Virus record (IMG/VR): IMGVR_UViG_3300023119_001932
Location: 1 to 48,795 of that record
Direction: 5' to 3' (one strand)
DNA length: 48,795 nt
Source of the DNA: a virus
Numbering within the stretch: the stretch's first letter is position 1; each line of letters begins with the position of its first letter. Positions 15,901-44,157 of this stretch are shown piece after piece. The translations under genes were made by a program, and so were the position numbers. Below the pieces are notes generated by a model. The model was not told where the DNA came from, searched no databases, and saw nothing but the letters and a program-made list of their open reading frames with translations.

Positions 15901-18900
15901 AATGCATTAACTGAAGCAGTTTCGGTATTCTCATACTACGGGTATGCAGGATATTTTGCAGAAGACGGCGGACGTATACGTGCTACAAATGGTAACTCAT
16001 CTTATGGTACATACGGTTGTGTAGCAGAAGGCTTTGACGATAGTGAAATTCCAGCAACAGGCACTGTTAATAACACATCTGGACAAGCTATTGCTAAGGC
16101 GGTCGGAGCATTAGGTGCTAATTCTGAAATTTTAAAATTACAGTACGAACATGCTGGTGAACAATATTATGAAGCATCAACAAACATTTTAAAACACTCA
16201 AATAGCTTATTAAGTAGTAATCAGCCAGATGAAAATTGGCAAACAGATAGCAATGTTTCTATTGTTAGAGCAAATACAACACCATACGAAAATGAATTTG
16301 CTTGGAAAATAACTGCAAATACATCACTTACTGATAGTGCTTATTTCTATCAAGATGCAGAAGTTTATCCACAAGGCGGCGTGTATAATAATATTTCAGG
16401 ATTTAACGAAAGCGGTTCTGGTATTGACGCAACATTCAATGTTACAGTAACCGGAGACCAATATTTTGTTGCTGTAAATAACGGCGGTAGCGGATATGTT
16501 GTTGGAAACCAAATTAGATTATTAGGTAAGTCATTTGGCGGACGCAGTCCAGAAAATGATATTATTGTTACAGTTGATACACTTAATATTACAGCAATCT
16601 TAGGAATAGCATTTGAAGGCGTTGTTCCTACTGGGTCAGCATTACCTTATAATGTAAGTATCCATGCTAAAAAAGGTGACACATCATACTTTGATATGTT
16701 TAGTATATTCTCAGGATATCAAGAAAGACCTTACAAGGTAAGATTTAATTTTGACACTGAAGAATTAACAACAGAAATATTAGACGGATCAGCTACAGCA
16801 CCAACTAATCTTAGAGCAGACTTTTTAGAAGACGGATGGTGGAGATTATCATATACAGTTTATGACGAAACTGCACAAAATGATTCAGTAAGATTTAAAG
16901 TTTATCCAAGAGGTATTGACGGTATTTCAGGATATACTAATTTTTATGGTGCTCAGATAACATTATCAGAAGATCCATTATTTTTCCTTGAAACAACAGA
17001 CAATATGCCAACTGCATATGCAAATATTAAGATTACAGGTGCAGGTCAAAATGTTAAAGTTGTTGGTGACGAGTTACGCACAGGATCAGTATTCCAAACA
17101 AGAATATTAGAAAGTGATGAAGTTCGTTTAGGTGGATTAGGATATTTGCTACAAACAAATAACGCACAAACTGGTACTGACGAATATCTAACACTTGCAG
17201 GATCTGAAGTTGCAGAAGCATCTGAATATGAAGGTATGAGACTTGTTGTACAGTCTGGTAAAGGTGCAGGACAATATGGAATTATTGCAAACTATGATCC
17301 AGCATCTAAAGAAGCATCAGTAGTTAAAGAGTCTTTTGATCCGCAAGAAATTGTAGCAACATCTTCTGCAGATAATACATTTACACTTGGTCCTGATTCT
17401 TCATTGCAACAAATTTATTTAGGACAAAAAGTACAGTTTACTCCAACATTTTATGATATTAATATAGAAAGTACTTCGCAAAGTAGTTTAAACGTTCTTG
17501 CTACAGTAGGAGATTTAACAAACGTTATGTTAGTTGAATCTACAGCAAGATTGCGTGTAGGTCAAAAAATTAACTTTAGTGGCGAGCCGTTTGGTGGAGT
17601 AATTACTGGATTTGATTATTATATTATTGATGTTATTGACGATCAAACAATTCAGCTATCTACTTCATTAGGTGGTGCAGTATGGCCGTTATTAAACGTT
17701 AACATTGAAGATCCTCAAGATTCACCGTTTGTAATTACTACAGACTTACCTAAATTTAAGTTAAATTATCCAGACAATACAAGTTACTTAAAAGCAGATA
17801 CTACTGCTAATATGCAAATTACTTTACCCATTCAGTTTACAGGAACAAGTATTGGCGATGTTGAATTAGGTACTACATATTTTATTCATGAAGTTTATAA
17901 CGATGAGCAATTTAGTATTGCTGAAAGTTTACAACCAGTGTCAGTAACTAATACAGATTCGGCAGATAACTCATTACAAATTTTAGATACATCTGTACTA
18001 ATACCTCTTAACGGAATTGTTTTTAAAGATGGAATAATTGGTGGACTACAAGAAAAAACAAAATATTATGTTAATGAAATTATTGATGGAACTAAATTTA
18101 CTCTTTCCAGCGGAACAATTACTACATCAGCAACAGCAACAGAAGGTATTACAAACCTAATAACAGTTGATAGTACAGCAGGTTTTATTCCTAATGCTCC
18201 AATTATTTTTACAGGTGTTACGTTTGGTAGTATTGATAATGATAAAGTGTATTACATTCAGGTTGTTAACGATGCAACAACATTTACTATATCTGAAGCT
18301 CCAGGAGGTGCGGCTGTACCGTTAACTTCTCAAGTAGGTCAGGTAATTGTACGCACTGTATCAGATGAAGTTACAGTAAGCACTGATGCAGGAGTTATGA
18401 CTGGAGATTCAACAGGTCCTAAACTTGAGCTATCTGCAGGAAGAGGAGCAATGGAAGCTTCGTTCTTTACAGAAACTTTTGGTAATATTGTTGAAGGTAC
18501 TACATACTTTGTTAGAGAAAAACTTGAAGGAACATCGTTTAATCAAATTACAATAGCAGAAACATTAGGAGGTCCAGAGTTTGCACTTGCAGATGAAGAC
18601 GGATCGATGCAAATACAAGCCGTTGGATGGGATCATATTAATGCTGGTACTCCTCTTGTAACAACATTTGACTCAACATCAGTTTATGTAATTGAACCAA
18701 GAATTACATATGATTATCCGCCATTTATCCAAGAAGACATGAATGAAGTTGAAGGTGCTCCGGAAAGCGGATATTCAGTCATAGTAAGCGACGGATTTAA
18801 ACCATTTGCTGTTGCACGATACGGCGATAAAGTCAAATCTACAAGCGATAGCTTAACATGGGATCAGGACTATGTTTTACCTGTTGCAGGATTACCTGTA

Positions 18901-20781
18901 ACAGAAGGCGGTAATGGTGGTTGGACTGATGCATGTTTTGGAAATAACACTTATGTAATTATTTCAGAAACTGGACAAGACTCGTTGTATTCAGTATCTG
19001 AAGGACTTACGTGGCTATCCAGTAATTTACCAACATTGCCGGCACCTGCTCCAGGAGAAGACCAAGCATATTGGTCAGCAGTTGCTTATGGTAATGGTAA
19101 CTTTGTAGCAGTAGCACACGGTGCAGAAAATTCAGCATATTCAACAAATAATGGCGGCACTTGGACAGAAGTAACAGGACCAATTGGCCCTGACGAAAAA
19201 TGGATTGATGTAGCATACGGTAACGAAACATTTGTTGCAATATCAACTGACTCAAGTATTGCAAAATATTCAACAGATGGCGGCCAAACATGGAGTGCTA
19301 CTGATATGTTAGGCGGCGGTGATTCTTCAGTTGATAACTGGAGCAAAATTGAATTTGGTAATGGCAGATTTGTTGCAGTTTCCAGAGACGAAAGACCACC
19401 TGTATACAGTTTTGACGGTATTAATTGGTATGCGTCTAACTTATCTGTTAATGGAACAGAGTTTAAATACGGACAAGGATTGTTTATGTTAATTGATTCG
19501 GATACTGGATTTACATATACATCACCAGACGGTATTAACTGGAGAGAAGAAACTTCTACAATTGGTAGAGATTACAGTGTTTTAGGATTTGGTATTGAAC
19601 CAGACACACGTCATGGATACTTTTATACAATGGATCCATTAGCACTTCTTCCTTCAAGAATAAGTGCAGGTTGTAGAGCAATAGCAAGAGCTACTGTACA
19701 AACTGCTAAAATTACTGCTGTTACAATGTTAGAACCAGGTTCAGCATATGAAACAGATAGCTTTGTGCCTAATGTAAGAATTACTGACCCTAATAATTCA
19801 GAAGAAGCATTACTTCAAGTTCGAGTAGGCAATGGAACACTTGGTGCTCCAAGTTTTATTGATTTTGGTTCTGGATATAACACAACTTCAACTGCTATTG
19901 CAATTAGAGGTGAAGGATTTAGTGATTCGTTCCAAACTGGTTTAGAACTTATTGCGTCAGGCATTACAAGATTCCCAAGTCCGGGCGACAACTTACAATT
20001 TGAAGGCAATCCTGAAGTATATCGTGTTGCAAAAGCAACAAGACTAAGAGGAACAGAAGTTCCAAATTTAGAAGCAATAATTTCATTAAGTCCGCAAATT
20101 ACACAAGAGACTTCGCCAGAACACAATACACCGTTTACTATTCGTAGTAGATTTAGTCAATGTCGTATTACAAACCACGACTTCCTAAACATTGGATTTG
20201 GTAACGAAATACAATCTAACTATCCTGATTTACCAGAAGATACTGGACTTGAACCACAAGACGAAATTGTTGAAACAAATAACGGTCGTGTGTTCTACTC
20301 AAGTACAGACCAAGACGGTAACTTTAGAGTTGGTGACTTGTTTGCTGTTGAACAGGCAACAGGTGTTGTTACATTGAGTGCTCAAGAATTTGGACTTGAA
20401 GGACTAACAGAATTAACAATTGGTGGTGTTGCACTTGGTGGCTCTCCAGTTGTTATTACAGAGTTTAGTACAGATGGCACATTTGTTGCTAACTCAAATA
20501 ATATTGTTCCAACGCAAAAAGCGATTAGAACATACTTGGCAAGTAGATTGTCACAAGGTGGTTCAGATACATTTACAGGCTTGCTACAAGCAGGTACTGT
20601 TAAAGTAGGTGGACCAGATGAAATTACATCGTCTGTTCCGGAAGGAGGAGACGGTTGGCAAATTAAAATGGGGGCAAAAACAAACGTTACAGGACCATTA
20701 GCAGGATGGGCTGGAGACGGTTTGGCATTCTCGTATTTTATGAAGACGCTTGTCGATCCTACACGCGGCGGACAGCAATAA
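12925..20781 (+). CDS. Giant multi-domain tail fibre (2618 aa): W-rich repeats, beta-helix, lectin-like insert, Asp-box repeats
   Basis: Residues about 10-485 hold seven repeats of the kind W-x-G-x-W ... Y-x-x-x-D-x-V-x-Y-G-G-x-x-Y, resembling chitin-binding family 5/12 modules. A pectin-lyase-like beta-helix starts near 540 (NVYYVATNGIDDPSRGTTP). It includes one degenerate helical module (RDARLVIDAI...RGGN) and continues through 881-1043 (SDMFYVRNATGIRNMTVKGL). Residues about 1086-1355 form a lectin-like jelly roll. About six modules of the type FTGxxFGxxxxGTTYY follow (near 1500-1880). Residues about 1945-2240 carry sialidase-type Asp-box repeats (STNNGGTW 2073-2080, STDGGQTW 2116-2123, SPDGINW 2200-2206). 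Near the C-terminus are STDQDGNFRVGDLF and IVPTQKAIRTYL. No hydrolase residues were identified, so binding is likelier than cleavage. It is probably a major long fibre. Confidence 0.85.
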   Translation: MSEFKISRLRFSWVGEWTDQRAYNKDEIVQFNGKAYVCLIPHTSNGFYDDLNNIEPKWELMMTGQTWKGVWQQFTQYALDNIVIFGGVVYKCNEQHLSGSIIDPDIDKWDVYAESKTWASEWTSSTTYGPGDIVNYGGSVYECIVSHVSADTDLAGLEADYTDVDDSTEKYWKLLQYGVSYRGEYVTSNQDSTEVRYKLNDVVKYGPSLFRCIWGHAPSVEFEDFADSTDLYETFISEYWEEWLPGLDFDGVWNENAIYQPGDVVQYGGYLFQSNVINNINNRPSVHYGNEDSSDAWELITKAYDIEGEWSAETDYKIGSIVTYGGDLYVSLKDNIRQIPGNFEVQAVYESDGSSGNTIILETYDSTNPNSITVGMTVVGEGISRGLTVETVSTNEVTGKTTVTLNYAPTGTIPDSAILTFSGANFEYWELLIPGFEYHGRWSDNKLYNIDDVIYYGNATFKSLREHTSSLVNRPDNDLQNNYWTLYLQHDQRNSLTDPGQLLTFEEKNVPLEIGPEASILKVINGLPKWSDIDFTPNVYYVATNGIDDPSRGTTPDTAWKTVKYACESVLEGTLQQNAKELLERNKEWIVQETFYWFLYQQNTNQAPFDTSVDFDNDKVIRDARLVIDAIIADIIRGGNAQTVAAALSYFDLESTNKFTNDTVAAQAPYFLVFFEKQFELIRSALTNTQPAQSYQQLESVETPVMQYFNSNLTLENNTLTVIGGLERILLEPFEAGTPKVIPPANESAYSTIFIRSGTYNENLPIVVPENTALNGDELRGTTIQPAAPVNTLCTRTFGDINQFVVGSTVNMFHNCPVQFVSLNPVTEISTVFGNVIAGQTYYVIGSSITDTTFSVSEVPDGEPFELFTNLGDMYVYGGEALSDMFYVRNATGIRNMTVKGLRGTLTEENEFLTRRPTGGAYVSLDPGEGPDDTRAWIKYKSPYVQNVTTFGLGCTGLKIDSTLHNGGNTSVVSNDFTQILSDGIGIWCTGGNALTEAVSVFSYYGYAGYFAEDGGRIRATNGNSSYGTYGCVAEGFDDSEIPATGTVNNTSGQAIAKAVGALGANSEILKLQYEHAGEQYYEASTNILKHSNSLLSSNQPDENWQTDSNVSIVRANTTPYENEFAWKITANTSLTDSAYFYQDAEVYPQGGVYNNISGFNESGSGIDATFNVTVTGDQYFVAVNNGGSGYVVGNQIRLLGKSFGGRSPENDIIVTVDTLNITAILGIAFEGVVPTGSALPYNVSIHAKKGDTSYFDMFSIFSGYQERPYKVRFNFDTEELTTEILDGSATAPTNLRADFLEDGWWRLSYTVYDETAQNDSVRFKVYPRGIDGISGYTNFYGAQITLSEDPLFFLETTDNMPTAYANIKITGAGQNVKVVGDELRTGSVFQTRILESDEVRLGGLGYLLQTNNAQTGTDEYLTLAGSEVAEASEYEGMRLVVQSGKGAGQYGIIANYDPASKEASVVKESFDPQEIVATSSADNTFTLGPDSSLQQIYLGQKVQFTPTFYDINIESTSQSSLNVLATVGDLTNVMLVESTARLRVGQKINFSGEPFGGVITGFDYYIIDVIDDQTIQLSTSLGGAVWPLLNVNIEDPQDSPFVITTDLPKFKLNYPDNTSYLKADTTANMQITLPIQFTGTSIGDVELGTTYFIHEVYNDEQFSIAESLQPVSVTNTDSADNSLQILDTSVLIPLNGIVFKDGIIGGLQEKTKYYVNEIIDGTKFTLSSGTITTSATATEGITNLITVDSTAGFIPNAPIIFTGVTFGSIDNDKVYYIQVVNDATTFTISEAPGGAAVPLTSQVGQVIVRTVSDEVTVSTDAGVMTGDSTGPKLELSAGRGAMEASFFTETFGNIVEGTTYFVREKLEGTSFNQITIAETLGGPEFALADEDGSMQIQAVGWDHINAGTPLVTTFDSTSVYVIEPRITYDYPPFIQEDMNEVEGAPESGYSVIVSDGFKPFAVARYGDKVKSTSDSLTWDQDYVLPVAGLPVTEGGNGGWTDACFGNNTYVIISETGQDSLYSVSEGLTWLSSNLPTLPAPAPGEDQAYWSAVAYGNGNFVAVAHGAENSAYSTNNGGTWTEVTGPIGPDEKWIDVAYGNETFVAISTDSSIAKYSTDGGQTWSATDMLGGGDSSVDNWSKIEFGNGRFVAVSRDERPPVYSFDGINWYASNLSVNGTEFKYGQGLFMLIDSDTGFTYTSPDGINWREETSTIGRDYSVLGFGIEPDTRHGYFYTMDPLALLPSRISAGCRAIARATVQTAKITAVTMLEPGSAYETDSFVPNVRITDPNNSEEALLQVRVGNGTLGAPSFIDFGSGYNTTSTAIAIRGEGFSDSFQTGLELIASGITRFPSPGDNLQFEGNPEVYRVAKATRLRGTEVPNLEAIISLSPQITQETSPEHNTPFTIRSRFSQCRITNHDFLNIGFGNEIQSNYPDLPEDTGLEPQDEIVETNNGRVFYSSTDQDGNFRVGDLFAVEQATGVVTLSAQEFGLEGLTELTIGGVALGGSPVVITEFSTDGTFVANSNNIVPTQKAIRTYLASRLSQGGSDTFTGLLQAGTVKVGGPDEITSSVPEGGDGWQIKMGAKTNVTGPLAGWAGDGLAFSYFMKTLVDPTRGGQQ

Positions 20782-20817: not shown

Positions 20818-23800
20818 ATGGCAGAGTTTAAGTTAGGTAGAATTAGATTTGTTTGGCAAGGCGATTGGCAAGCCAGCAGATCTTATGTGGCGGATGACGT
20901 TGTTAGCTTTGGTGGTAAATCTTACATTTGTATTAGAAACCACACTGCATCATCAACATTCAATGTTGACTTTGATAACGAAATACCAAAATGGGATATT
21001 GTTTCAGATGGTACAAGCTGGCAAGGAGAATGGCAGCCAGAGTATGACTATGCACCGGGTGATGTTGTAAAATACGGTTCTTTAGTATACATTGCTGAAA
21101 CAGGACATACATCAGCTACATTTGAAGCTCCTGATTATTTAGGTCTTGAAGAAGACTTAGATAAGTGGACACCTTTTGCTACATCTTTTGATTGGAAGGG
21201 CGATTGGACCACTGATACAAGATTTAAAATTAATGACTTAGTACGTTACGGCGGCTTTGTATACCTATGTAATACTGCACACGTTTCTGCCTCGACAGCA
21301 GCCTTAGGTTTAGAAGCTGACCAAGCTAAATGGGAATTATTTAGTGATGGCATTGTTTATTTAGGTGACTGGAATACTGGCATTAGATATCGTGTTAACG
21401 ATGTTGTTAAATATGGCGGTAATGTATTCATTTGTACTGCTCCTCATACATCAGCAGACTTTTTAGCAGAAGAAGCAAATTGGGATACATTTATTGAAGG
21501 CTTCCAATTTGAAGATAGCTGGGATAATGCAACTGTTTATCAAATTGGTGATACAGTTACATACGGTGGTTACATATACGTTGCTAAAACAAATAACACA
21601 AATTCACAACCTACATCCAATCCAGATGATTGGGAAGTGTTTACAACAGGTTTTGCCTTCCAAGGCGATTGGAGTTCATTAGATAGTTATAAAGTAGGTG
21701 ATGTTGTACGCTTAGGCGGCAATACATATGTTGCTGTTGCTGATAACTTAGACGAAGAGCCACCGGAAGATACTTACTGGAGTAAGTTAAATTCAGGTAT
21801 TAACTGGACAAGAAGTGTAGAAACATTTTCACAAATTGCTGGCGTAAACAATCAAGGACAATCTGGCTCAGGCGCAAGATTTGATATTACTAAAGCAGAT
21901 ACAGTTTATACTTTAACATTGTCAACAGGTTTTGCTGGAACTGGTTATGTTAACGGAGATATAATTACAATTACAGGTGACAATGTTGGCGGTCAAACAC
22001 CAGCAAACGACATTGTTATTACAGTTACCGGAGTCGACGGCGATGCAATTGATACGTTTACACACTCTGGTTATTCATCATCATGGATTGCAGGACAATC
22101 ATATCATGTAGGCGATGTTGTTATTTACGGCGCAAGTTCATTTATTTGTGTAACTAAACATACATCAGGATCAGCTAATCGTCCAGACAACGATTTGTCT
22201 GCAACATATTGGAACATTTTAAGTATTGGTTCTGAGGCACTTTCGTTAAGTGTAGACGGTGACTTAGTTTATTACGGTAATAATGGTCCTACAAGATTGC
22301 CAATTGGAGTTGATGGACAGATTTTACGTGCATCGGATGGATTTCCGGAATGGGCAAACTATGGCTTGATTGATAATGTTGTTTATGTTGGTCCTTTAGG
22401 TACTGATGTTCCTCCACCAATTGCTGGATTAACAATTGACAAACCTTTTGCAAGTGTACGTTATGCACTTGATCAAATTAAATTAGGGTATCTAAATCCG
22501 CAAACACGTGATATTTTAAAGAATAATAAACAATATCTATTAAAAGAAGTTACTAATTGGATTAAGTATACTTACAGAGTTACAGTAACTTCAACAAACG
22601 CAGGTACACGTAGATTTACTTGTAATACTACAGAAAATCTTAAAGACGGAATGCCAATTGTATTTACAGGCGATGTGTTTGGTGGTGTTACAGAAGGCAC
22701 TACTTATTATATTGACTCTGTTGTTAATGCTACAGAATTTAGAATTGCAACTACACCAGGCGGCGTATCGTTTATTCCAACAGACGCAACAGGTATAATG
22801 CAAGGCGACCTTGCATATGATGAAGCTAAATGCGAAAGAGATACTGGTTTAATTGTTGACGCATTAATTTATGATGTGTCACGTGGAGGTACATTAAAAA
22901 CTACTGAAGCAACAAAGGCCTACTACACTGAAGCAGGTAACGAATATATTAATTCAAATTTAGGAAATCAACGCATTCAAACTGTTGAAGCATATACACA
23001 ACTAAAATCGTTTGTAAGCACTTTACTTAATAATCAAACTCCAGTTAATTATCAACATCTTAATGGAATTAAGTTAACTGAAAGAGCTCAGCAAGTAATT
23101 GATTTATCTCTTAGTGCTGAAGAAACCGGTAAAACAAAAGCAAATGAATTATTAGATATTGTTATTAATGGCATTGAAGCAGAATCAAATACAGCTATTG
23201 CACTTCCGGTATTACCAAATACAACAGTGTTTATTAAAACAGGCACATACAACGAAGTTCTTCCAATGATCCTTCCAGAATATACTGCGGTAGTTGGCGA
23301 CGAATTGCGTACAAGTGTTATACAACCACAGCCTGCAATTTCAGAACTTAGGAATGATAAAAATAAAACTGTATCTGCATTAAACAGAATTTTAGATGTT
23401 TCGTCAGAAATTATTCAAAATGTTGAAATAGAACCAACTACAGGAAATACTGTATCTCAAAAATATATTAATGGATACGGCGGTAATTCAACAGCAACAA
23501 ATAGAATTAATAACGGAATTGAAATTACACAAGATGTATTAAAAACTGGTTTAAGTATTGTTGATACAATGCCAGCTGTTGGTCCAACTCCAACTTCTGG
23601 AACTAATAACGCAAGCGATTCAGGATTTGCAAATGCAGTAGCACAGATTGAAGCAAACTATGAGTTTATTAAAGAAGAAATAGTTGCTTGGATCCAAGTA
23701 CAGATTGACGGAAATATTGCTCCATTTACAACAGCATTTACATATGATACTGATTCTTGTAGAAGAGATGTAGAATATATTCTTGATGCACTACGTTACG

Positions 23801-26800
23801 ATTTAACTTATGGTGGTAATTTCCAAACTACTGTTGCATGTAGAAGTTACTTTGTAGACGGAAGTCCAGTTTATGGTGCAGGTGAAAAAGAAGAAACACT
23901 TGCGGCATATGCACATTTAAAAACTGTTGTAGGCGACATTATTACTGAAACTGTAATTACAGCAAGTGTAGGAAACGACCTAACACAAAATACTGATGGA
24001 ACAGCAGGGTCTGCGGGAGCAGAAACATTTGCAGAAGCTCGTGTACAAGAAATTTTTGACACTATTGACACAGATGGTACATTACCTACAGAAGTTGCTC
24101 CAGATACATCTTGGGTGTCATCTACGTTTACAGCATTTGCATCAGATATATCAGCAAAAACATCTGAAATTCAAAATGCAGTAATTGATTACACAAACTC
24201 AAACTTTGGTAACTTTAATTACGATAGTGCAGTTTGTAGACGAGATGCAACACTCTTAAAAGTAAATTCAGCATATGATGTAGTACTTGATACTAACTAT
24301 AATGCTGTTAGAGATGGCCTTGCATATCAGAGAGGCTCAGCACAGAGTGTAAAAGAGTATCAAGAAGAACAAACTGTTGGAACTATTACACAACAAAAAA
24401 CTCTTGTAAATGCTTTATTAAGCGATCCGGATGCACAAACAAGAAGTGACGCATACTTTGACGAAATAATTGACATTATCCAAAATGGTTCAGCAAGTGC
24501 TAATCCTATTGTTTACTCTGATACTGGTGTTACTTCAAAAACAAATGCAAGAACAGAGTTACAAACAAATAGACAAAATATTATCGATGACTTAACTACG
24601 TGGATTGGTGCAAATTATCCAGACCATACATACAGTGTTGAGGTTTGTGAAAGAGACACTGGTCGTATTGTTGATGCTATTAGCTATGATATTCAATACG
24701 GTGGAAACAGTGCAACGTATGAAGCTTCAAAAGCATATTTTGAAGGATATGTTGAAGTACTACCAGTAGCACAGAGAGATATTTCAGTTGCGGCATTTGA
24801 GCAACTTGCAGTTATTGTAAAAACATATATTGCTAATACAACAGAACAAGACGAAGCAGAAGCATTAGTATTAATTGTTGCAAAAGTAATTGAAGCAGGA
24901 ACTATAATTGCACTACCAACAAAGACATATCCAGATTACAGTGCATTAGCAACTGCGGCAATACGTTCTGATGCAGACGATGTAATTGCAGATACAACTG
25001 TTGTACCGGCTACACTACAATTTGTAACAGACGAATATAGTACATTTAAATACGATCATGCTAAGTGTTCAAGAGATATTGGATATGTAGTTGATGCATT
25101 AGAATACGATATGCAGTTTGGTACTAAATTTAATTCATTAAAGGCCGGTATGGCTTATCGTAGAGGAATTGCATCATCGCTGGAAGTTGTTGAAAATCAG
25201 TTAGAAGCAACACTTGCATCGTTTGATGTTGTAAGAGAAGAAATTAAAGAAATTACTTCTGGAACACAAAGTGTAATAGATAACACAGATAATATTATTG
25301 ATATTTTAGTTAATAATACTGTTCCGTCGTCCTATACTATTACTGATCCTACTAACTATGATACAGGTTTCTTTAATGCACGTAGATTAGTTGTTGCAAA
25401 CAAACAATTTATACAAGACGAAATTAGTGCATACATGGCAGATCAATATTCGGCAGTATGGACAGGATTTACTGTTGATGAGCAAAACGAATGGTTAGCA
25501 GAGATTGATAAAATTGTTGATGCTCTAAGATATGATTTAACTTATCGCGGAAACTTAGAAACTATTGTTCGTGCAAGATCATACTATAAGGATGGTATCC
25601 TAATTCGTGCAGAATCAGAAAAGCCTGCATTACTTGGTGTTAAAGATAGACTTATTGCTATTATTGATGATATTGCAACTGGAGTATCAATTACAAGAAC
25701 AACAGGAAACGTAACAGTACAGGATACAAACGGAACAGCAGGTTCTGCGGGAGCAGGAGCATTTGCTGTAGATCGTATTACAGAAATTAAAGAAACTATT
25801 GATACTGGATTAACTCCGGCATTAATTTCGCCTTCAACAGCATGGGTTGACAGCGGATTTGTTAAATTTAAAGATACAATTGACTCAAGACTTGAAATTA
25901 TAAAACAAGCGGCAACAGATTATATAGATGTTGTTTATCCTAATTTAACTTATGATAAAGAAAAATGTGCAAGAGATGTAGGATATATTATTGATGCTGT
26001 AGCATATGATGTTATTTTTGGAAGTAACTTCCGTAGTTCTCAAGCAGGACTTGCATATCAGAGAGGTATAACATCTACAGATTATGTAATTGAAAATCAA
26101 TTAAATGCAACTGTACAAACAATTGAATTTATTCAAGAATCTTTAAAAGAATTAGCTGTAGGCGTGTTAACAGAAGAAGGAACTCGAGAAACTTCTAATA
26201 GAGCATATGATATTACAATTGGTATGCAAACTATTATACAGAATGGTTTAGATTCGTTACCACCAATTGAGTTTCCACTACCGCCAAATTATAATACTGC
26301 CGATTATGCAAATACTGCTTATGCATCTGCATCAAACACATCTGGTAGTACAGAAACATTTGGTCATGCAGTAGACAGGATTGTTGCTAACTATGACTTT
26401 ATAAAACAAGAAGTTCGTAAGTGGTTAGAAGATCCAGCAAACGGATATGACACTTTCTGGGGTGGATTAACAACAAATGCACAAGATCGTTGTATTAGAG
26501 ATGTTGGCTATATTTTAGATAGTACACGTTATGATTTATTATATGGTGGAAACACACAGTCGCTTATCACAGGATCTGCTTACTTTACAAACTTTGTATT
26601 ATCAATTGACAGTTCAGAGTTACCTGCAACTATTGCGGCTTACGGAAGATTAAAAACAGTTACAGACCAAGTTATTCAAGGCCAAGCTGTTACAACAAGT
26701 CCGGGAGTTACTGAAGTACAAGATACAAGCGGCACAAACGGTAATGTTTCTGCGGCAGAATTTGCATTAGATAGAATTGATGATGTATTAGATTGGATTC

Positions 26801-29800
26801 AAAATACAGCACCTAACGCTACAATTGAAGTTGCAACTGACTACGGTACAAATGAAGTAACAACAGCTTACAACAGAATTGTTGAACGCAAAAATGAAAT
26901 TGTAGAAGACGTTGTATTTTGGGTAGAAAAATATTTCCAAGACTTAGAATATAATCAAGATACATGTCGAAGAGATGCCGGGCTAATGGTTGATGCTATT
27001 GCACGTGACATTATTACAGGATCTAACTTTGCTACAGTAAAAGCTGGAATGAGCTATTTTAGACAAATTCCATCAGCTGAAGAAGTTATTAATAACGAAT
27101 TAAAAGCAACTGTAGGAAGTATTGGATTCCTTGCAGAAAAGGTTAAACGTACTTGTGCTGTTGCACCAAGTGCGGCTATTGAATTGTTGATTGAAGATGT
27201 AACAAATTATATCTATGGCGGCGAACAACCAGTAGAAAAATGGATTGCACAATCAAATGCTACAGAAGCAAATGTAGCAGGTGCTTCAATTATTTGGGAA
27301 AATAAAAAATATATACAAGCAGAAGTTCTTGCATATATTAATGAAAACTATCCAACACTTGATTATAATCAAGAAAAATGCGAGCGTGATGTAGGATTTA
27401 TTGTTGATGCATTAAGATACGATCTTACATATGATTCTGATGTTGCAACTACTCGAGCAGCCGAGTATTATAATACACAAGCAAATGGATTTTTAGAGTC
27501 AACACTTAGTAATGATGAATTAACTGCTACACTTGATGCATACGATTATATGAAGCAAATTGTTAATGGTTTAGCTGTAAATACTATTTCAAGTCCAGGC
27601 TCATTGCAAGATATTGTAAAACCAGTAGCAAGAGATGAACTACAACAAGTAGGTGATTCAGGAACATTGGCAAGAACAGAAGAGTTAATGACAAAGATTT
27701 ACAATTATTTGGTTGATTATACTCAAGCGCCAACTATCACAGTTACTACTATTGCGTCTAATGTACTTACTACAAGCGAAGCACACGGATTAGAAATTGG
27801 TGATGAAATTTATGCACCAGATGGTGGCGAAACATATTTTGTAAAAACTGTTCCGTCTACAACTACAATTACACTGTCAGATTACTTCCAAGGTCCTACA
27901 ACTAATATAGGAGATCAAACAGGTGTGCAATTTGTATACAATGTATATAGACATGCAAGCATTGTAGAAACAAGTGCAAGTCTAAAACAACAATATACAA
28001 ATTTAACTGGTTCTATTGAGTCTATTAAGCAATCTATAACAGAGTTTATTGCAGAAGGTTATCCAACACTTGACTATAACGTAGAAAAGTGTGAAAGAGA
28101 TGTTGGATATATTGTAAATGCTGTTGGTAGAGATATGATGGTTAATTCAAACTATTTGACTACTATTGCTTCAGAAGCATACTATAGAGGAACCCAAGCA
28201 GACGAAGTGTTAGGTCCTCAAAAAATTGCAACAGTTCAATCTTATAGAGAACTGAAAAATGTAATTGCAACATATGTAAATGGAGATGCAACTGCATTAA
28301 AACGTACTAATGAGTTAATGGACATTATTATTAAAATGCTCGACAAAGGTAATGGCAAAACTCCATCAATTATTGGTACAACTACGTATCTAAATGACAG
28401 AGAAACTATTAATGCTGTTGATGTTTTAAAAGTAAATAGAGACTTTTTGGCAGCAGAAGCTACAGCTTGGATTGAACAGAGCTTTGGTGGTATTGTTACA
28501 GAAATTACAGGCTCTCCAGGATCTGTTGTGTTTGATAGAGAACACAATTTACAAGTTAATGATCCTGTTGCTTTTGACAGCGATGCATTTGGCGGAGTAG
28601 AAGCTGGAAAAACATATTATGTAAGCAATGTAGTTTCAACTTCAGAAGTTGAACTTACTGACGAAATTAACGGAATATCATTAGACTTTACAGGTGGTAT
28701 AGGTTCAAGTGTAGTAACTTATGCGTTTGATAGAGAAGCATGTAAGCGTGATATGCGTGAATATGTCGAAGCTATTATTTACGATTTACAATATCCTGGA
28801 AACCATAAAGTTCATAAAGCGGCAGAATTATATTTAAATGCTGTAAATGGTTCAGAACGTTCAGACATGTTCCATGTACGTAATGCTACAGGTGTACGTA
28901 ATATGACTGTTAACGGATTACGTGGTAACCTAACAGAAGAAAACTCTTTTGGAACAAGACGCCCAACAGCAGGTGCATATGTATCACTTGATCCAGGTTT
29001 TGGTCCTTGGGATACAGAAGCATGGGTAACTAACAAATCATGTTATGTACAAAACGTTACAACATTTGGTGTAGGCTGTGTTGGTTGTAAGATCGACGGT
29101 GCGTTACACGCAGGTGGTAACAGATCTATCGTTTCAAACGACTTTACACAAGTACTAAGTGATGGTATTGGTGTATGGTGTAGCGGTAACAACTCACTAA
29201 CAGAGCTTGTATCCGTGTTTGCATACTACAACTATTCAGGTTACTTAGCAGACTTTGGTGGACGTATTCGTGCTACAAACGGTAACTCATCTTATGGTAC
29301 ATACGGTGTTATTGCTGAAGGTACTGATACTGGTGAAGAGCCAATCGTTGCAACTGTAGACAACTTATCGCAAGATGCACTTGTTGGATCAGTATTAACC
29401 GACGGTGAAGAACAAGTATTACGTTTTGAATTTACAAACGCTGGTAGAGATTATACTAATGCTGAATTTGCAATTAGTGGTACTGGTTTTAATGCCGCAG
29501 TTATTGATACTGAATTTAGAGACCAAGCAGTTGTTGAAACACGCATTATTGATTTAGACGACGGAAATACTGTAGGCGGTGAAGACTTTACTTCAGCGCA
29601 AAACGTTGCACAGGGTGGCGATCCGTATACATTAACATTGGCAGCAACAGATACTGCATTAGGTGATCAATATTCAGGTATGAATGCTCAACTAACAGCA
29701 GGAACAGGTGTTGGTCAATATGGTACAGTATTAACATTTAACAATGGTACTAAGGTTGCTACAATTTATAAACCAAGTGTAGGACCGTTTACAATTACTG

Positions 29801-32800
29801 ACACAGTGTCGTCTACTAATGTAATTACTATTTCAAGTGATGTAGCTGAACAATTATATGTAAATATGCCAATTTATGTCGAAAGCGATATTGCAGGTTT
29901 ACAAAGAGGTGATTTATATTATGTTCTTACTGTTTCAGGCAATGATATAACAGTAAGCACGTCAGAAGGCGGATCAACATTCTCAATTACAGCTGATACA
30001 ACAGGACAAACTGTTGGGCTATACGAAGCAGGTTGGGATCATGTAATTCCTGGAACACCTTCAGAGCTTGGATTAGATCTAACAACAGGCTACATAATAG
30101 AACCAGCAATTTCATATACTGAGCCTGGTTATACAGCAAATGCTGGAACAATGGCTACTGCTCAAGAATACGGTGCAGTTGAATACGGAGATAATAGATT
30201 TATTGCATTGCCGCAAGGTTCTGTAAGTACTAATTATTCCTTAGACGGCGAAAATTGGGTACTTGGTGGTAATCTTCCATCTACTGGATCGTGGCAAAAA
30301 GCAGCCTATGGTGGCGGCGTTGGTGCAACAGCAACAGCAATCGTTGGCGGACTTGGAGGAACAGGAGCTATCTTAGAAGCCGAGTTAGGCGAATTAAACA
30401 GCATTGGCTTACCAGGACCAACACAGATTTCAAAAGTAAATGTTATTAACGGCGGACGTGGATATGTAACTGCTCCAACTATTACATTTACTGCTACATC
30501 AGGTGGCGGTGGCGCAAGTGCTGTTGCTACAGTTAAAGATGGTAGTATTCAAGAAATTATTATTACAAGTACTGGTGCAGGTTATGGCGCGGCGCCAACA
30601 GTAACAGCAGATACTGATAAAGTTACTGAAGTCATTGTTAATAGCTTTGGTAGAGATTATTTATCACCACCAACAGTTACAATTAGCGGCGGCGGCGCAA
30701 GTACACAAGCATCTGTAACAGCAACTATGAATAACGAAGGTGTTGCTACTATTGTAATTGATGAAGATGTAGACGGAAATCCATTACGTGGTGAAGGTTA
30801 CACATCACAACCTACAGTTACTATTACAGACGGAAATGCTAAATGGGTTGCTATTGATGTAGCAGGAAACGCTAACGCTTATTTGTCAACAAGTGACGGA
30901 CTTACTGATACTTGGACAGCAGGCGCGGCAACTCCAGGAACTGCAAACAATGATATTGCTTACGGAAACGGATCTTGGGTTGTAGTAGGCGGCAACGGCG
31001 GAAGCGGCGCCGCAGGTACATCAACAACAGGAACAGCCTGGGTATCAAGAACAATGACAACACTTGCTTCTGGAACTGACGAATTTAGTGGTGTAGCATA
31101 CGGAAGTAACAGATTTGTTGCAATATCTCAAGAAGGCGAAACAGCAACAAGTAGTAACGGTATTACATGGGCCGCTGGCGGAGCATTACCAAGTACTGCT
31201 GGTGCTTGGAGCTTTGTAGAATACGGAAATGGCAGATTTGTTGCATTATCAACATCAGGAGAAGTGGCAATAAGTTACAATAATGGTGAAGATTGGTATG
31301 CATCTGCAATGGGCGGCGTATCTAATATTGAATCTGCTAATTGGACAAATCTTGCTTACGGCCAAGGCTTGTTTATGGCAGTTGGAGATAATAAAGTTGC
31401 AACAAGTGAATTTGGTTTAACTTGGACTGATAGACAAGAAGATCTTACTGCATCGTTCTACGGTGTTGCATTTGGTAATCCAAATAATGTTCCGCGTTGG
31501 GTAACTACACAAACAACAGGTGGTACCAACGGCGAAACATACACAATTAAAACTGGTGCTCGTGCAATGGGTAGAGTTACACAAGAAGACGGATCTATAG
31601 TACAAATTAGACTATCTGAGCCAGGATCGGGTTACCCAATAGGTAATGTTGAAAGTACTACGGCGCCAAATACAATTACACTTGATACTGTAGATAACTT
31701 ATTTGTAGAGCAACCTATACAATTTAGTGGCTCAACAGCAGTAGGATTAGATTCAGAAAGACTTTACTACATTTCAGATATAACTGGTAATGATATTGAA
31801 ATTAGTTTGCTAAAAGGTGGTGCAAGTTTTGATATTCAAACTGTAGACAACGAAGATATTGGAACACTAACATATAAGTCAGGACCGTTAACAACATTAA
31901 CAGATCCAAATGTAACTGTTCCGGCAGCAGTTAATTCAAGAATTGTAAACGGTGCATTAGGTAATCCAACATTTACTAATAGAGGTACAGGTTATACAAC
32001 TGCTACTGCCGAACTTGGCGGTGATGGTAGTGCAGACTTGTATCAGCCAAGCACATTTGTTGCTGTAGCAGACTTGTTTGAGTTACCAGAACCAGGTTCT
32101 AACGTTGAGTTTGACGGAATACCAAACAGATGGTATAAATTGGTTACTATTAGTAATGTTATTGGACAGCCAGGAAGTTACACAGCAACATTCCAAATTA
32201 GTCCAGGATTAACAACACTAAATGCACCAAAAGATAACACAAGTATTACTACTACTAACAAGTACTCGCAAGTACGTCTAACAGGACACGACTTCTTGTA
32301 CATTGGTACTGGTAACCAAGCTGATACTAACTATCCGTATGTTGACATTACAACAGCAAGTATTGATAGACAACAATTAAGTAGCGGTGGCGGAAGGGTG
32401 TTCTTTACATCAACCGACCAAGACGGTAACTTTAACGTTGGTGGACTATTTGGCGTACAACAGTCCACAGGTACTGCGACATTGGATGCTGATGCATTTA
32501 ACTTAGCAGGACTACAATCATTGCAGTTAGGTGGTATTGCAGTTGGTATTGGATCGGCTGTTATTACACAGTTTAGTACAGACCCGTTCTTTACTGAAAA
32601 CAGCGATAATATTGTTCCAACACAACGAGCAATTAAATCATATATTACTGCACAGATTGGTGGTGGTCAGAGTAGCTTGAACGTTAACACTTTAACAGCT
32701 GGTGTTGTGTTTATTGCTAACGATGAAATTACTACAACCAACGGTGGTCAGCTAAATATTAAAGCAAAGATGAACTTTACAGGTGGTATTGACGGTGCGC

Positions 32801-32832
32801 CAGTAGCACTTGGATACTTCTTATCAAGATAA
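20818..32832 (+). CDS. Giant tail fibre (4004 aa) with a 12-copy helical module array inserted in the beta-helix
   Basis: This is the paralogue of the 12925 product, with the same order: seven W-x-G-x-W/Y-G-G repeats (about 10-470), beta-helix start (YVGPLGTDVPPPIAG near 525; LPEYTAVVGDELRT near 820), SDMFHVRNATGVRNMTVNGL at 2680-2842, Asp-box-like repeats (about 3115-3560, for example SLDGENW at 3141-3147), STDQDGNFNVGGLF and IVPTQRAIKSYI at the end. The difference is the middle. Some 1750 extra residues are filled with a helical module of pattern C-x-R-D-x-G-x-I-V-D-A-x-x-Y-D-x-x-x-G-G-N. Module cysteines lie at 672, 981, 1140, 1277, 1417, 1717, 1892, 2050, 2188, 2425 and 2642, plus one copy without Cys near 1558. 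Glycine-rich GxGY...P-x-V-T-I repeats interrupt the propeller-like region near 3210-3340. It is likely a very long fibre; the array may act as a stalk or extra receptor domain. Confidence 0.85.
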   Translation: MAEFKLGRIRFVWQGDWQASRSYVADDVVSFGGKSYICIRNHTASSTFNVDFDNEIPKWDIVSDGTSWQGEWQPEYDYAPGDVVKYGSLVYIAETGHTSATFEAPDYLGLEEDLDKWTPFATSFDWKGDWTTDTRFKINDLVRYGGFVYLCNTAHVSASTAALGLEADQAKWELFSDGIVYLGDWNTGIRYRVNDVVKYGGNVFICTAPHTSADFLAEEANWDTFIEGFQFEDSWDNATVYQIGDTVTYGGYIYVAKTNNTNSQPTSNPDDWEVFTTGFAFQGDWSSLDSYKVGDVVRLGGNTYVAVADNLDEEPPEDTYWSKLNSGINWTRSVETFSQIAGVNNQGQSGSGARFDITKADTVYTLTLSTGFAGTGYVNGDIITITGDNVGGQTPANDIVITVTGVDGDAIDTFTHSGYSSSWIAGQSYHVGDVVIYGASSFICVTKHTSGSANRPDNDLSATYWNILSIGSEALSLSVDGDLVYYGNNGPTRLPIGVDGQILRASDGFPEWANYGLIDNVVYVGPLGTDVPPPIAGLTIDKPFASVRYALDQIKLGYLNPQTRDILKNNKQYLLKEVTNWIKYTYRVTVTSTNAGTRRFTCNTTENLKDGMPIVFTGDVFGGVTEGTTYYIDSVVNATEFRIATTPGGVSFIPTDATGIMQGDLAYDEAKCERDTGLIVDALIYDVSRGGTLKTTEATKAYYTEAGNEYINSNLGNQRIQTVEAYTQLKSFVSTLLNNQTPVNYQHLNGIKLTERAQQVIDLSLSAEETGKTKANELLDIVINGIEAESNTAIALPVLPNTTVFIKTGTYNEVLPMILPEYTAVVGDELRTSVIQPQPAISELRNDKNKTVSALNRILDVSSEIIQNVEIEPTTGNTVSQKYINGYGGNSTATNRINNGIEITQDVLKTGLSIVDTMPAVGPTPTSGTNNASDSGFANAVAQIEANYEFIKEEIVAWIQVQIDGNIAPFTTAFTYDTDSCRRDVEYILDALRYDLTYGGNFQTTVACRSYFVDGSPVYGAGEKEETLAAYAHLKTVVGDIITETVITASVGNDLTQNTDGTAGSAGAETFAEARVQEIFDTIDTDGTLPTEVAPDTSWVSSTFTAFASDISAKTSEIQNAVIDYTNSNFGNFNYDSAVCRRDATLLKVNSAYDVVLDTNYNAVRDGLAYQRGSAQSVKEYQEEQTVGTITQQKTLVNALLSDPDAQTRSDAYFDEIIDIIQNGSASANPIVYSDTGVTSKTNARTELQTNRQNIIDDLTTWIGANYPDHTYSVEVCERDTGRIVDAISYDIQYGGNSATYEASKAYFEGYVEVLPVAQRDISVAAFEQLAVIVKTYIANTTEQDEAEALVLIVAKVIEAGTIIALPTKTYPDYSALATAAIRSDADDVIADTTVVPATLQFVTDEYSTFKYDHAKCSRDIGYVVDALEYDMQFGTKFNSLKAGMAYRRGIASSLEVVENQLEATLASFDVVREEIKEITSGTQSVIDNTDNIIDILVNNTVPSSYTITDPTNYDTGFFNARRLVVANKQFIQDEISAYMADQYSAVWTGFTVDEQNEWLAEIDKIVDALRYDLTYRGNLETIVRARSYYKDGILIRAESEKPALLGVKDRLIAIIDDIATGVSITRTTGNVTVQDTNGTAGSAGAGAFAVDRITEIKETIDTGLTPALISPSTAWVDSGFVKFKDTIDSRLEIIKQAATDYIDVVYPNLTYDKEKCARDVGYIIDAVAYDVIFGSNFRSSQAGLAYQRGITSTDYVIENQLNATVQTIEFIQESLKELAVGVLTEEGTRETSNRAYDITIGMQTIIQNGLDSLPPIEFPLPPNYNTADYANTAYASASNTSGSTETFGHAVDRIVANYDFIKQEVRKWLEDPANGYDTFWGGLTTNAQDRCIRDVGYILDSTRYDLLYGGNTQSLITGSAYFTNFVLSIDSSELPATIAAYGRLKTVTDQVIQGQAVTTSPGVTEVQDTSGTNGNVSAAEFALDRIDDVLDWIQNTAPNATIEVATDYGTNEVTTAYNRIVERKNEIVEDVVFWVEKYFQDLEYNQDTCRRDAGLMVDAIARDIITGSNFATVKAGMSYFRQIPSAEEVINNELKATVGSIGFLAEKVKRTCAVAPSAAIELLIEDVTNYIYGGEQPVEKWIAQSNATEANVAGASIIWENKKYIQAEVLAYINENYPTLDYNQEKCERDVGFIVDALRYDLTYDSDVATTRAAEYYNTQANGFLESTLSNDELTATLDAYDYMKQIVNGLAVNTISSPGSLQDIVKPVARDELQQVGDSGTLARTEELMTKIYNYLVDYTQAPTITVTTIASNVLTTSEAHGLEIGDEIYAPDGGETYFVKTVPSTTTITLSDYFQGPTTNIGDQTGVQFVYNVYRHASIVETSASLKQQYTNLTGSIESIKQSITEFIAEGYPTLDYNVEKCERDVGYIVNAVGRDMMVNSNYLTTIASEAYYRGTQADEVLGPQKIATVQSYRELKNVIATYVNGDATALKRTNELMDIIIKMLDKGNGKTPSIIGTTTYLNDRETINAVDVLKVNRDFLAAEATAWIEQSFGGIVTEITGSPGSVVFDREHNLQVNDPVAFDSDAFGGVEAGKTYYVSNVVSTSEVELTDEINGISLDFTGGIGSSVVTYAFDREACKRDMREYVEAIIYDLQYPGNHKVHKAAELYLNAVNGSERSDMFHVRNATGVRNMTVNGLRGNLTEENSFGTRRPTAGAYVSLDPGFGPWDTEAWVTNKSCYVQNVTTFGVGCVGCKIDGALHAGGNRSIVSNDFTQVLSDGIGVWCSGNNSLTELVSVFAYYNYSGYLADFGGRIRATNGNSSYGTYGVIAEGTDTGEEPIVATVDNLSQDALVGSVLTDGEEQVLRFEFTNAGRDYTNAEFAISGTGFNAAVIDTEFRDQAVVETRIIDLDDGNTVGGEDFTSAQNVAQGGDPYTLTLAATDTALGDQYSGMNAQLTAGTGVGQYGTVLTFNNGTKVATIYKPSVGPFTITDTVSSTNVITISSDVAEQLYVNMPIYVESDIAGLQRGDLYYVLTVSGNDITVSTSEGGSTFSITADTTGQTVGLYEAGWDHVIPGTPSELGLDLTTGYIIEPAISYTEPGYTANAGTMATAQEYGAVEYGDNRFIALPQGSVSTNYSLDGENWVLGGNLPSTGSWQKAAYGGGVGATATAIVGGLGGTGAILEAELGELNSIGLPGPTQISKVNVINGGRGYVTAPTITFTATSGGGGASAVATVKDGSIQEIIITSTGAGYGAAPTVTADTDKVTEVIVNSFGRDYLSPPTVTISGGGASTQASVTATMNNEGVATIVIDEDVDGNPLRGEGYTSQPTVTITDGNAKWVAIDVAGNANAYLSTSDGLTDTWTAGAATPGTANNDIAYGNGSWVVVGGNGGSGAAGTSTTGTAWVSRTMTTLASGTDEFSGVAYGSNRFVAISQEGETATSSNGITWAAGGALPSTAGAWSFVEYGNGRFVALSTSGEVAISYNNGEDWYASAMGGVSNIESANWTNLAYGQGLFMAVGDNKVATSEFGLTWTDRQEDLTASFYGVAFGNPNNVPRWVTTQTTGGTNGETYTIKTGARAMGRVTQEDGSIVQIRLSEPGSGYPIGNVESTTAPNTITLDTVDNLFVEQPIQFSGSTAVGLDSERLYYISDITGNDIEISLLKGGASFDIQTVDNEDIGTLTYKSGPLTTLTDPNVTVPAAVNSRIVNGALGNPTFTNRGTGYTTATAELGGDGSADLYQPSTFVAVADLFELPEPGSNVEFDGIPNRWYKLVTISNVIGQPGSYTATFQISPGLTTLNAPKDNTSITTTNKYSQVRLTGHDFLYIGTGNQADTNYPYVDITTASIDRQQLSSGGGRVFFTSTDQDGNFNVGGLFGVQQSTGTATLDADAFNLAGLQSLQLGGIAVGIGSAVITQFSTDPFFTENSDNIVPTQRAIKSYITAQIGGGQSSLNVNTLTAGVVFIANDEITTTNGGQLNIKAKMNFTGGIDGAPVALGYFLSR
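22801..28860 (+). repeat. Diverged tandem array encoding about 12 helical C-x-R-D modules
   Basis: Within the 4004-residue gene the module codons (Cys at 22831, 23758, 24235, 24646, 25066, 25966, 26491, 26965, 27379, 28090 and 28741, and a Cys-less copy near 25500) repeat with spacings mostly of 137-175 codons. The longer gaps of 309, 237 and 217 codons hold inserted beta segments. DNA similarity between copies is low except at the motif, so the amplification is old. Confidence 0.8.
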
Positions 32833-37178: not shown

Positions 37179-38186
37179 ATGTCAAGATCAACAGCATTTT
37201 TTATTAACGGCGGCGCCGGCCGTGTTATAACATCAATTCCCGCACTTGAACTTTTTGAAAAAGAAAATCCTGAGGATGATTTTATTATTGTCTGTGAAGG
37301 AGGAACTGATTTCTATAAAGGACATCCTACATTGCATAAACGTGCATATGACGTTTGGCACAAAGGATTATTTGAAAACTTTATTAAAGATAGAACTTGT
37401 GTAAGTCCAGAACCATATCGTATTTGGGAGTATTATAATCAAAAATGCAGTATTGCACAAGCCTTTGATATTGAAATTAATAAAAAAGGTATTAGAGATT
37501 TACATATTCCCCAAATATATCTTAATAAATCAGAAAAGTTACACGGTAAAAGTGTTGTTGACGAAGTTAAAGCAGTTACTGGTTTAAGTAAAGTAATTGT
37601 AATTCAACCTTTTGGCAGAGGAGTTGAACAAACATTAATAGATCAAACATCGAGAAGTTTTCGCGTAGAAGATATGTTAGCAATCGCTAACGAACTTAAA
37701 AAAGAATACGGAATTATTATAATGAGCGAATTGCCGCTTAACATGTATAATGAAGATCCTAATGAAGCTCCTCTTGCACAACCAGAAATTCCGGATATTA
37801 GAATTTGGGGAGGAGTAATTGATGCCGCAGATCACTTCTTAGGATGTGACAGTGTAGGACAACATATTGCTAAATCACTTGGCACCACTGCTACAGTTAT
37901 TACTGGTAGTACATATCCAATTAACACATCATACGTAAATGACAAAGATATTGAAATCTTTGATGTTGGCGAAGGAAGACGTGTATATAGTCCTATTAGA
38001 GTATCAATGGAAGAAGAACCTGACAGATTAAATGATAAAGCAATGGACTTGACACAAGAACAAATTGATAGTATAGTTAATTCTATTAAAAAACGTGTAG
38101 GTAAAAGTGAGCGTTCAGCACCACAACAACCAACACAGAATCAATTTGATAATAATTCAACTTGTTCCCATACAGGAGGACATTAA
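37179..38186 (+). CDS. GT9 (heptosyltransferase)-like glycosyltransferase
   Basis: The 335-residue protein shows the two-domain pattern of glycosyltransferase family 9 (WaaC/WaaF heptosyltransferases). The N-terminus FFINGGAGRVITSIPALELF resembles 'G-D-x-x-x-x-x-P-x-L'. The second Rossmann half starts IVIQPFGRGVEQ, then VEDMLAIANELKKEYGIIIM. The sugar-nucleotide binding end is DAADHFLGCDSVGQHIAKSLG (D215 and D224 among its acidic residues), matching 'D-S-G-x-x-H-x-A-x-A-L-G', followed by VITGSTYP. The last ~28 residues are a Ser/Gln/His-rich tail. A heptose donor would fit the ADP-heptose genes encoded nearby. GT9 homology alone does not prove the donor, and the acceptor (LPS core, virion protein or other) is unknown. 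Translation is probably controlled by the inverted repeat just upstream. Confidence 0.7.
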   Translation: MSRSTAFFINGGAGRVITSIPALELFEKENPEDDFIIVCEGGTDFYKGHPTLHKRAYDVWHKGLFENFIKDRTCVSPEPYRIWEYYNQKCSIAQAFDIEINKKGIRDLHIPQIYLNKSEKLHGKSVVDEVKAVTGLSKVIVIQPFGRGVEQTLIDQTSRSFRVEDMLAIANELKKEYGIIIMSELPLNMYNEDPNEAPLAQPEIPDIRIWGGVIDAADHFLGCDSVGQHIAKSLGTTATVITGSTYPINTSYVNDKDIEIFDVGEGRRVYSPIRVSMEEEPDRLNDKAMDLTQEQIDSIVNSIKKRVGKSERSAPQQPTQNQFDNNSTCSHTGGH

Positions 38187-38187
38187 T

Positions 38188-41195: not shown

Positions 41196-41198
41196 TTA

Positions 41199-41816: not shown

Positions 41817-42195
41817 CTTCTAACCTTTGACTGTCGCCTGGACCAATTCTATAATTATCTTCAACGCTATCTGGTGTACTAACTTCTGTTACACTTCCTT
41901 CTTTAGACAAACAAATTAATTGATGTGGCTGTAGCGGAGGATTGCGCCAAACTTCGCCTTCTTTAAGTTCTTTTTCGTATAGCATACTATTCTTTGTATC
42001 AATGTATGCAACTTTAAATCTTCCATTATTTACAAACCAAGTCTCGTCTTTTTCTTTATGAAAGTGCATACTTGTTTTAGCACCTTCTCTGTTAAAGACC
42101 ATAATTTTACCACAATACATTTCATTTGTGGCCCAAATCATTTCATAACCCCAGCCTTTTTGAACAACACCGCTTAGTCTTTTTACATCAGCCAT
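41800..42195 (-). CDS. Cupin protein, mannose-6-phosphate isomerase type II-like
   Basis: This is a single-domain cupin of 131 residues. It has KGWGYEMIWATNEMYCGKIM, SMHFHKEKDETWFV (H-x-H and Glu as metal ligands), the strand around KVAYIDTKN, and PPLQPHQLICL with the distal His. The pattern is closest to the C-terminal cupin domain of type II phosphomannose isomerase/GDP-mannose pyrophosphorylases and to small sugar-phosphate cupins. It ends in an acidic GDSQRLEDAAED tail. It overlaps hldD by 8 nt and the oxygenase by 17 nt. A sugar-isomerase or epimerase step feeding the heptose pathway is possible. It is not a GmhA (SIS fold) homologue, so it cannot be assumed to replace that missing step. 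Confidence 0.78.
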   Translation of the reverse strand: MADVKRLSGVVQKGWGYEMIWATNEMYCGKIMVFNREGAKTSMHFHKEKDETWFVNNGRFKVAYIDTKNSMLYEKELKEGEVWRNPPLQPHQLICLSKEGSVTEVSTPDSVEDNYRIGPGDSQRLEDAAED

Positions 42196-44133: not shown

Positions 44134-44157
44134 AATATTATTGTACACTCAAACTTT

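Follow-up and report, generated by a model that had tools for sequence, protein, structure and literature searches.

The 48,795-base stretch analyzed here (the window), positions 1 to 48,795 of the uncultured virus record IMGVR_UViG_3300023119_001932 in IMG/VR, derives from an aquatic phage, has tail genes of the large myovirus type and includes a gene for a 4004-amino acid tail fibre in which a helical module is found 12 times. This module is very probably homologous to the phycobiliproteins, or at least shares their fold and their site; none of the statistics for this relation is overwhelming by itself. The reading that we favour is that the modules are bilin-binding globin-like domains, of the phycobiliprotein or bilin biosynthesis-associated globin (BBAG) kind, which are pendant along the phage tail fibre. 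The bilin is predicted, and we give the reading about an even chance of being correct; occupancy of the modules by bilin is plausible to the same degree, and a light-linked function, for example in adsorption, is speculative.

A first profile made from eight clear copies found 12 modules in the fibre (33-170 bits), and a profile of these 12, run over the whole window, recovered the same 12 and one additional copy in a paralogous fibre (E 2.5e-51 to 8e-13). The number of modules given by the preliminary description was thus obtained in two profile searches, and profiles, alignment and the AlphaFold2 prediction agree that they are repeats of one helical fold of about 140-165 amino acids, most copies being strong, module 6 weak, and the C-terminal one partial. 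Module 1 lies outside the interval originally assigned to the array, 23340-28860, upstream of the sequence GDELR (Table 1). Instead of the proposed spacing of 137-175 residues, consecutive starts from module 2 to module 10 are separated by 136-169 residues, and distances of 303, 237 and 218 residues are found where other sequence intervenes. A Cys is present in 11 of the 12 modules, in all 11 as part of a Cys-x-Arg-Asp (CxRD) motif.

Comparison of the whole fibre to Pfam produced a sub-threshold match to the Phycobilisome family PF00502 (E 0.045) that falls exactly on one module. When the 12-module profile was searched against all PDB sequences the best 20 matches were phycocyanin alpha chains (best E 8.7e-4), and the alignment places the module residues Cys42-x-Arg44-Asp45 on phycocyanin alpha Cys84-x-Arg86-Asp87, Cys84 being the residue to which the bilin is attached. 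A profile of 107 diverse modules gave a similar result, with phycocyanin alpha chains as 24 of 25 matches (best E 1.4e-3). Taken singly, 14 of the 107 modules are matched by PF00502 and three by the next Pfam family; the best scores were 18.3 bits (E 0.0023) for module 7 of the window and 18.4 bits among 15 viral records. A profile-profile comparison with hhalign between the 107 modules and eight real phycobiliproteins from cyanobacterial plasmids had a probability of 94% and a score of 47.7. A further run, with ten sequences, scored 45.6; the highest score among 60 column-shuffled profiles was 15.3, and reversed profiles scored 9.7 and 11.5. The alignments span 96-116 co-linear columns. The Gp6-like helical domain (PF21379) was also considered as the identity of the module and rejected; it matched three of the 107 members with a best E of 0.087.

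The predicted structure leads to the same family. AlphaFold2 modelled the module with a predicted local distance difference test score (pLDDT) of 69.9 when only the 12 window modules were supplied, and of 95.3, with a predicted template modelling score of 0.89, when the 107 diverse modules were used. The module is predicted to have a globin-like helical fold with seven helices (residues 4-15, 17-31, 39-59, 63-73, 77-85, 87-108 and 111-134) in the order expected of phycobiliprotein helices A-B-E-F'-F-G-H, and the Cys is located in the third. In a Foldseek search of 350,542 PDB chains all 50 among the matches listed were phycobiliproteins or derivatives such as smURFP, each with a probability of 1.00, the best E being 4.7e-3 and the template modelling scores (query) among the matches listed being 0.52-0.66. 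The low-confidence first model (pLDDT 69.9) retrieved the same family, and globin-coupled sensors were also among its matches.

Conservation of the site was assessed in an alignment of 515 distinct modules from 80 viral loci and the window; because the pattern used to find these loci includes RD-x-G, there is a bias in the seed copies, which is smaller in the remaining modules of the loci. Conservation is highest at Asp56 (99%), Asp45 (97%), Tyr72 (94%), Cys42 (92%) and Arg44 (92%), and the full CxRD is present in 453 of the 515. Asp45 is kept in each of the 475 modules that have the Cys, and Arg and Asp together in 453 of them. Where Trp, Tyr or Phe replaces the Cys (19 modules from 15 viruses), as in module 6 of the window, Arg and Asp are both kept in only two; of the 18 modules with a small residue here, 17 retain both. 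The contrast between aromatic and Cys modules has a Fisher p of 6e-19, not corrected for relatedness, while Asp51 hardly differs in the same contrast (p 0.07), and Asp51 and Asp56 are largely kept. The C, R and D are therefore one site that is kept or lost as a unit. Loss of R and D with an aromatic residue in place of Cys while Asp51 and Asp56 are retained resembles a ligand site more than core packing, and could arise when such a site is lost by filling of the pocket. The conserved Cys had been taken in the preliminary description as a hint of a shared chemical role, for which the phycobiliprotein-type CxRD site now gives a basis. The accompanying suggestion that these Cys residues crosslink chains found no support and was rejected, since there is no second conserved Cys in the alignment and 397 of the 515 modules have a single one.

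Bilin genes and modules occur together in several large viral records. The two module-bearing records over 150 kb among the first tested (280 and 207 kb) both include a bilin reductase gene with an adjoining heme oxygenase gene. Searches with these reductases as queries found 12 records of 100 kb or more from uncultured viruses, nine of which carry 3-44 modules each. The 12 include the 280-kb record already known for its modules, and the first query and the reductases found with it share 77-100% identity, which means that the lineages are not independent. Eight large control records chosen for neither feature, four of them isolates from other environments, had no bilin reductase and in one case modules (Fisher test, 0.02). 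The association between reductase and modules in large uncultured viruses is suggestive. Co-occurrence of heme oxygenase or bilin reductase with the modules is at the level of the genome, not of one gene cluster, and the window, itself a fragment, showed neither gene. As additional backgrounds, a random 14-mer sample had modules in none of 22 records, only two of which exceed 100 kb, and a set of cobS relatives consisted mostly of short contigs. The record with most modules among those found through the reductases (G055, IMGVR_UViG_3300036770_003657, 399,796 bases) has 44 module matches, mostly in one open reading frame (ORF) of 6682 amino acids, and a bilin reductase gene at 339699-340247.

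In the mechanism that we propose each intact module would hold a bilin, a linear tetrapyrrole, through a thioether bond with the Cys, and the Asp, plus the Arg where present, would contact the chromophore as in phycocyanin. CxRD is the chromophore site of phycobiliproteins, in which the Cys forms the bond with ring A and the Arg and Asp supply hydrogen bonds, and BBAG globins that have CxRD take up bilins without a lyase (PMC10151467). The source of the bilin would be the cyanobacterial host, or the heme oxygenase and bilin reductase encoded by the phage; it would be taken up in the infected cell and then carried in the fibre of the virion, where a trimeric arrangement, which is usual for long tail fibres, would make about 33 bilins per fibre possible. 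The likeliest use would be at adsorption, for example if the state of the fibre depended on light or on a ligand; light-dependent adsorption is reported for several marine cyanomyoviruses (PMC2984593). A more tentative extension, which we regard as possible but doubtful, is that many aquatic tailed phages including cyanophages build biliprotein tail fibres with tens of covalent bilins each, that pigmentation of the virion is at least part of the function of phage heme oxygenases, bilin reductases (PebS, PcyX and PcyA) and lyases (CpeT and CpcV), and that light-dependent adsorption of cyanomyoviruses reflects the fibre chromophore.

Several observations weigh against the favoured reading of bilin-binding modules, the first of them touching on the relation to phycobiliproteins itself. 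No module, whether from the window, the set of 107 or the 15 viral records, was found above the PF00502 gathering score of 22.2 bits, no Foldseek match in the PDB had an E below 0.001, and the AlphaFold2 prediction is not fully independent of the CxRD motif, which the program may have used. When the four CxRD columns were masked the hhalign score dropped to 22.4 (E 0.006), and when helix E was masked it was 18.9 versus a shuffled maximum of 12.5; much or most of the sequence signal is thus the CxRD motif, with a weaker co-linear similarity outside it. That most of the profile signal resides in four columns and that single modules stay under the Pfam cut-off is what would be expected if an unrelated helical bundle had acquired a C-x-R-D motif by chance. 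We consider such convergence very unlikely because the co-linear similarity exceeds that of shuffles even with the motif or helix E masked, and because AlphaFold2 predicts a phycobiliprotein-like fold whose third helix holds the Cys.

Other points bear on the bilin. CpeT lyase is absent from 47 module-bearing records including the window and a CpeS-type lyase from the 33 records searched; T- or S-type bilin lyases are reported to be common in T4-like cyanophages (PMC10665884). The cyanophages P-SSM2, S-SSM7 and S-PRM1 have a bilin reductase but no modules, so the two are not linked in cyanophage isolates, whose host can supply bilins. Neither psbA nor a tail sheath close to those of cyanophages was found in the window, whose virus is not called a cyanophage here. 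Modules of isolates have C-x-x-D as their core, with Cys and Asp in 19 of 19 (one pair being overlapping copies of the same module), but the Arg is kept in six of these, its place often being taken by Asp or Thr (CxDD, CxTD). In the L016 lineage (modules at residues 706-2340 of the ORF) seven of nine modules have Thr, Ser or Ala, mostly Thr, instead of Cys and keep the Arg-Asp, which could reflect non-covalent binding or decay. The poor retention of Arg in isolates, the array kept with Thr for Cys in the L016 lineage and the absence of lyase genes from the large records searched can also be understood if the modules, of phycobiliprotein- or BBAG-like globin origin, are apo and act as a structural spacer that lengthens or decorates the fibre, with C, R and D kept for packing or folding. 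The number of modules, which ranges from 1 to 24 per ORF, and their position between other fibre domains fit such a role. This explanation is a serious one but less probable than not, as the Cys is 92% conserved at a mean column identity of about 21%, and the vanishing of R and D with an aromatic residue, with Asp51 and Asp56 largely kept, is ligand-site-like. A ligand other than bilin is a further alternative: the pocket could bind a different cofactor, such as heme or a metal, by way of Cys42, Asp45, Asp56 and Tyr72, and might in this way offer bait to a host uptake receptor. Asp56 and Tyr72 are as conserved as the CxRD residues and have no counterpart among the aligned phycobiliprotein invariants, and globin-coupled sensors were retrieved by the first model. 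We regard this as improbable, since bilin is favoured by the phycobiliprotein-type CxRD, which has the same position in helix E, and by the association with bilin genes, and His is not among the most conserved columns of the module alignment.

The fibre as a whole has profile matches to PHROG tail-fibre families of T4-like cyanophages (phrog_9851, E 4e-170; phrog_4527, 2e-71; phrog_5342, 9e-71; phrog_701, 5e-49), and its order is N-terminal CBM_5_12-like repeats, the 12 helical modules, and then sequence in common with the paralogue encoded at 12925-20781. The large difference between the two fibres in the segment from GDELR to SDMF, described earlier as about 1850 against about 100 residues, was confirmed: these sequences are located at residues 827 and 2682 in the long fibre and 776 and 883 in the paralogue, that is, 1855 and 107 residues apart. 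The paralogue does have the single Cys-less copy ascribed to it, with Val at the Cys position, and this copy is upstream of GDELR. By position it is the counterpart of module 1 and not a remnant of the array; since both are upstream of GDELR, the extra array consists of modules 2 to 12. In both fibres the N-terminal part has six to seven repeats resembling the carbohydrate-binding module CBM_5_12, and the C-terminal part has YGNGRFVAVS...DG..W-type repeats, which in translation appear Asp-box- or propeller-like (residues about 3290-3560 of the long fibre); those of the paralogue have a weak Beta-prop match.

Table 1. Fibre genes and modules of the window.
Feature	Coordinates	Strand	Basis and remarks
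Paralogous fibre gene	12925..20781	+	2618 amino acids
Lone degenerate module of the paralogue, upstream of GDELR	14653..14994	+	E 8e-13; Val at Cys position
Tail fibre gene with module array	20818..32832	+	4004 amino acids; PHROG tail-fibre families phrog_9851, 4527, 5342
Module 1 (CERD), upstream of GDELR	22702..23238	+	Profile matches
Module 2 (CRRD)	23611..24102	+	Profile matches
Module 3 (CRRD)	24112..24525	+	Profile matches
Module 4 (CERD)	24526..24948	+	Profile matches
Module 5 (CSRD)	24949..25362	+	Profile matches
Module 6, without the site (Trp in place of Cys; no Arg or Asp)	25357..25830	+	Profile matches
Module 7 (CARDVGY)	25843..26310	+	Predicted structure; alone matches Pfam Phycobilisome, E 0.0023
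Module 8 (CIRD)	26350..26847	+	Profile matches
Module 9 (CRRD)	26848..27246	+	Profile matches
Module 10 (CERD)	27256..27750	+	Profile matches
Module 11 (CERD)	27964..28401	+	Profile matches
Module 12, partial (CKRD), continues into SDMF	28618..28881	+	Profile matches

A fresh insertion and amplification of the helical domain in the fibre, as first proposed, is not supported. Modules 1 to 11 have counterparts one to one and in the same order in three relatives (L010, L011 and L014), with 38-79% identity to the positional counterpart and at most 47% to any other module, which indicates that the amplification of the array is old. Modules 3 and 4 have no counterpart in two further relatives (L009 and L013), and in others the corresponding part of the fibre contains fewer modules; in all, relatives have from a few to 12 modules and paralogous fibres have one, so that module number changes through loss or gain. 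A subtype represented by L071, L075, L078 and L080 has modules about 110 residues apart, with 15-24 matches per ORF.

The module is widespread in viruses. Searches with tblastn using three module segments against 50,697 phage records matched 20, 121 and 120 records, and all matched records of isolates are Synechococcus, Prochlorococcus or cyanophage by name or host, except for one named 'Marine'. By profile search 13 of 16 complete cyanophage isolates have 1-9 modules, nine being found in S-PM2, and none were found in Pelagibacter phage HTVC008M, T4, Atu_ph07, PA5oct, Phosso or SCTP-2. IMG/VR has at least 562 stretches from uncultured viruses that encode modules. A search of bacterial and archaeal genomes found three contigs with modules, from one metagenome bin, whose titles give coverages of 67x, 5.7x and 88x; these are most likely binned phage DNA. 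The photosystem gene psbA was found neither in the window nor in 46 other module-bearing viral records, which are fragments, and the tail sheath protein of the window is closest to those of the jumbo phages Atu_ph07 (Agrobacterium) and PA5oct (Pseudomonas), with 33% identity. The module-bearing fibre ORF of S-PM2 (L122, AJ630128 167596-170910) has about 15 annotated tRNA genes inside it, of which ARAGORN finds none, and this annotation looks misplaced.

Other genes of the window include an apparent ADP-heptose cassette on the minus strand (40560-44148) that consists of an HldE-like gene (42994-44148), an HldD-like epimerase gene (42188-42997) and a GmhB-like phosphatase gene (40560-41195), together with genes for a cupin and a 2-oxoglutarate-Fe(II) (2OG-Fe(II))-like protein; the matches are under the NCBIfam equivalog cut-offs. 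The cassette may alter nucleotide sugars or lipopolysaccharide during infection. A NodU/Nol-like carbamoyltransferase gene adjoins a 2OG-Fe(II) oxygenase gene at 38107-40579, and the same pair starts the genome of Pelagibacter phage HTVC008M.

Taken with what is known of related proteins, the module combines a fold and a site that are already known with an unexpected location, the virion fibre. It is like the phycobiliproteins (PF00502; C-phycocyanin alpha, allophycocyanin) in its predicted globin-like fold, its helix order and the C-x-R-D at the start of helix E, and the residues at phycocyanin positions 97 (Tyr) and 102 (Gly) are often kept. In phycobiliproteins D13 and R93 form an alpha-beta contact. 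The region of D13 is missing from the modules, the hhalign match starting at phycobiliprotein position 38, and the equivalent of R93 is Asp51 in 82% of them. Phycobiliproteins are made of alpha and beta subunits, whereas the modules stand in tandem in one chain of a virion fibre, miss the Pfam cut-off and have a bilin that is only predicted. Likened by description, the BBAGs are bilin-binding globins outside phycobilisomes, some with CxRD and with lyase-free uptake (PMC10151467), but they are bacterial, and their genes are clustered with those for heme oxygenase and bilin reductase, while the modules are domains of viral fibres. The same module is present in the long tail fibres of T4-like cyanophages (for example S-PM2, syn9, S-ShM2 and P-HM1; phrog_9851, 4527, 5342 and 701), giant structural proteins with open frames of up to 8573 amino acids that are annotated only as tail fibre or structural protein and whose modules often have CxDD or CxTD. 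PHROGs lists the module-bearing fibre families as tail fibre or structural protein, and BFVD includes predicted structures of them, in neither case with mention of phycobiliproteins. Searches of the open-licence literature found no report of phycobiliprotein-like or globin-like domains in phage virion proteins. A demonstrated bilin in the fibre would make the finding categorically new, and the nine modules of S-PM2 make the question of a pigment one that can be assayed on virions of a laboratory cyanophage. Should the modules carry no pigment, a viral branch of the phycobiliprotein/BBAG globin fold would still be relevant to how the phycobiliproteins evolved.

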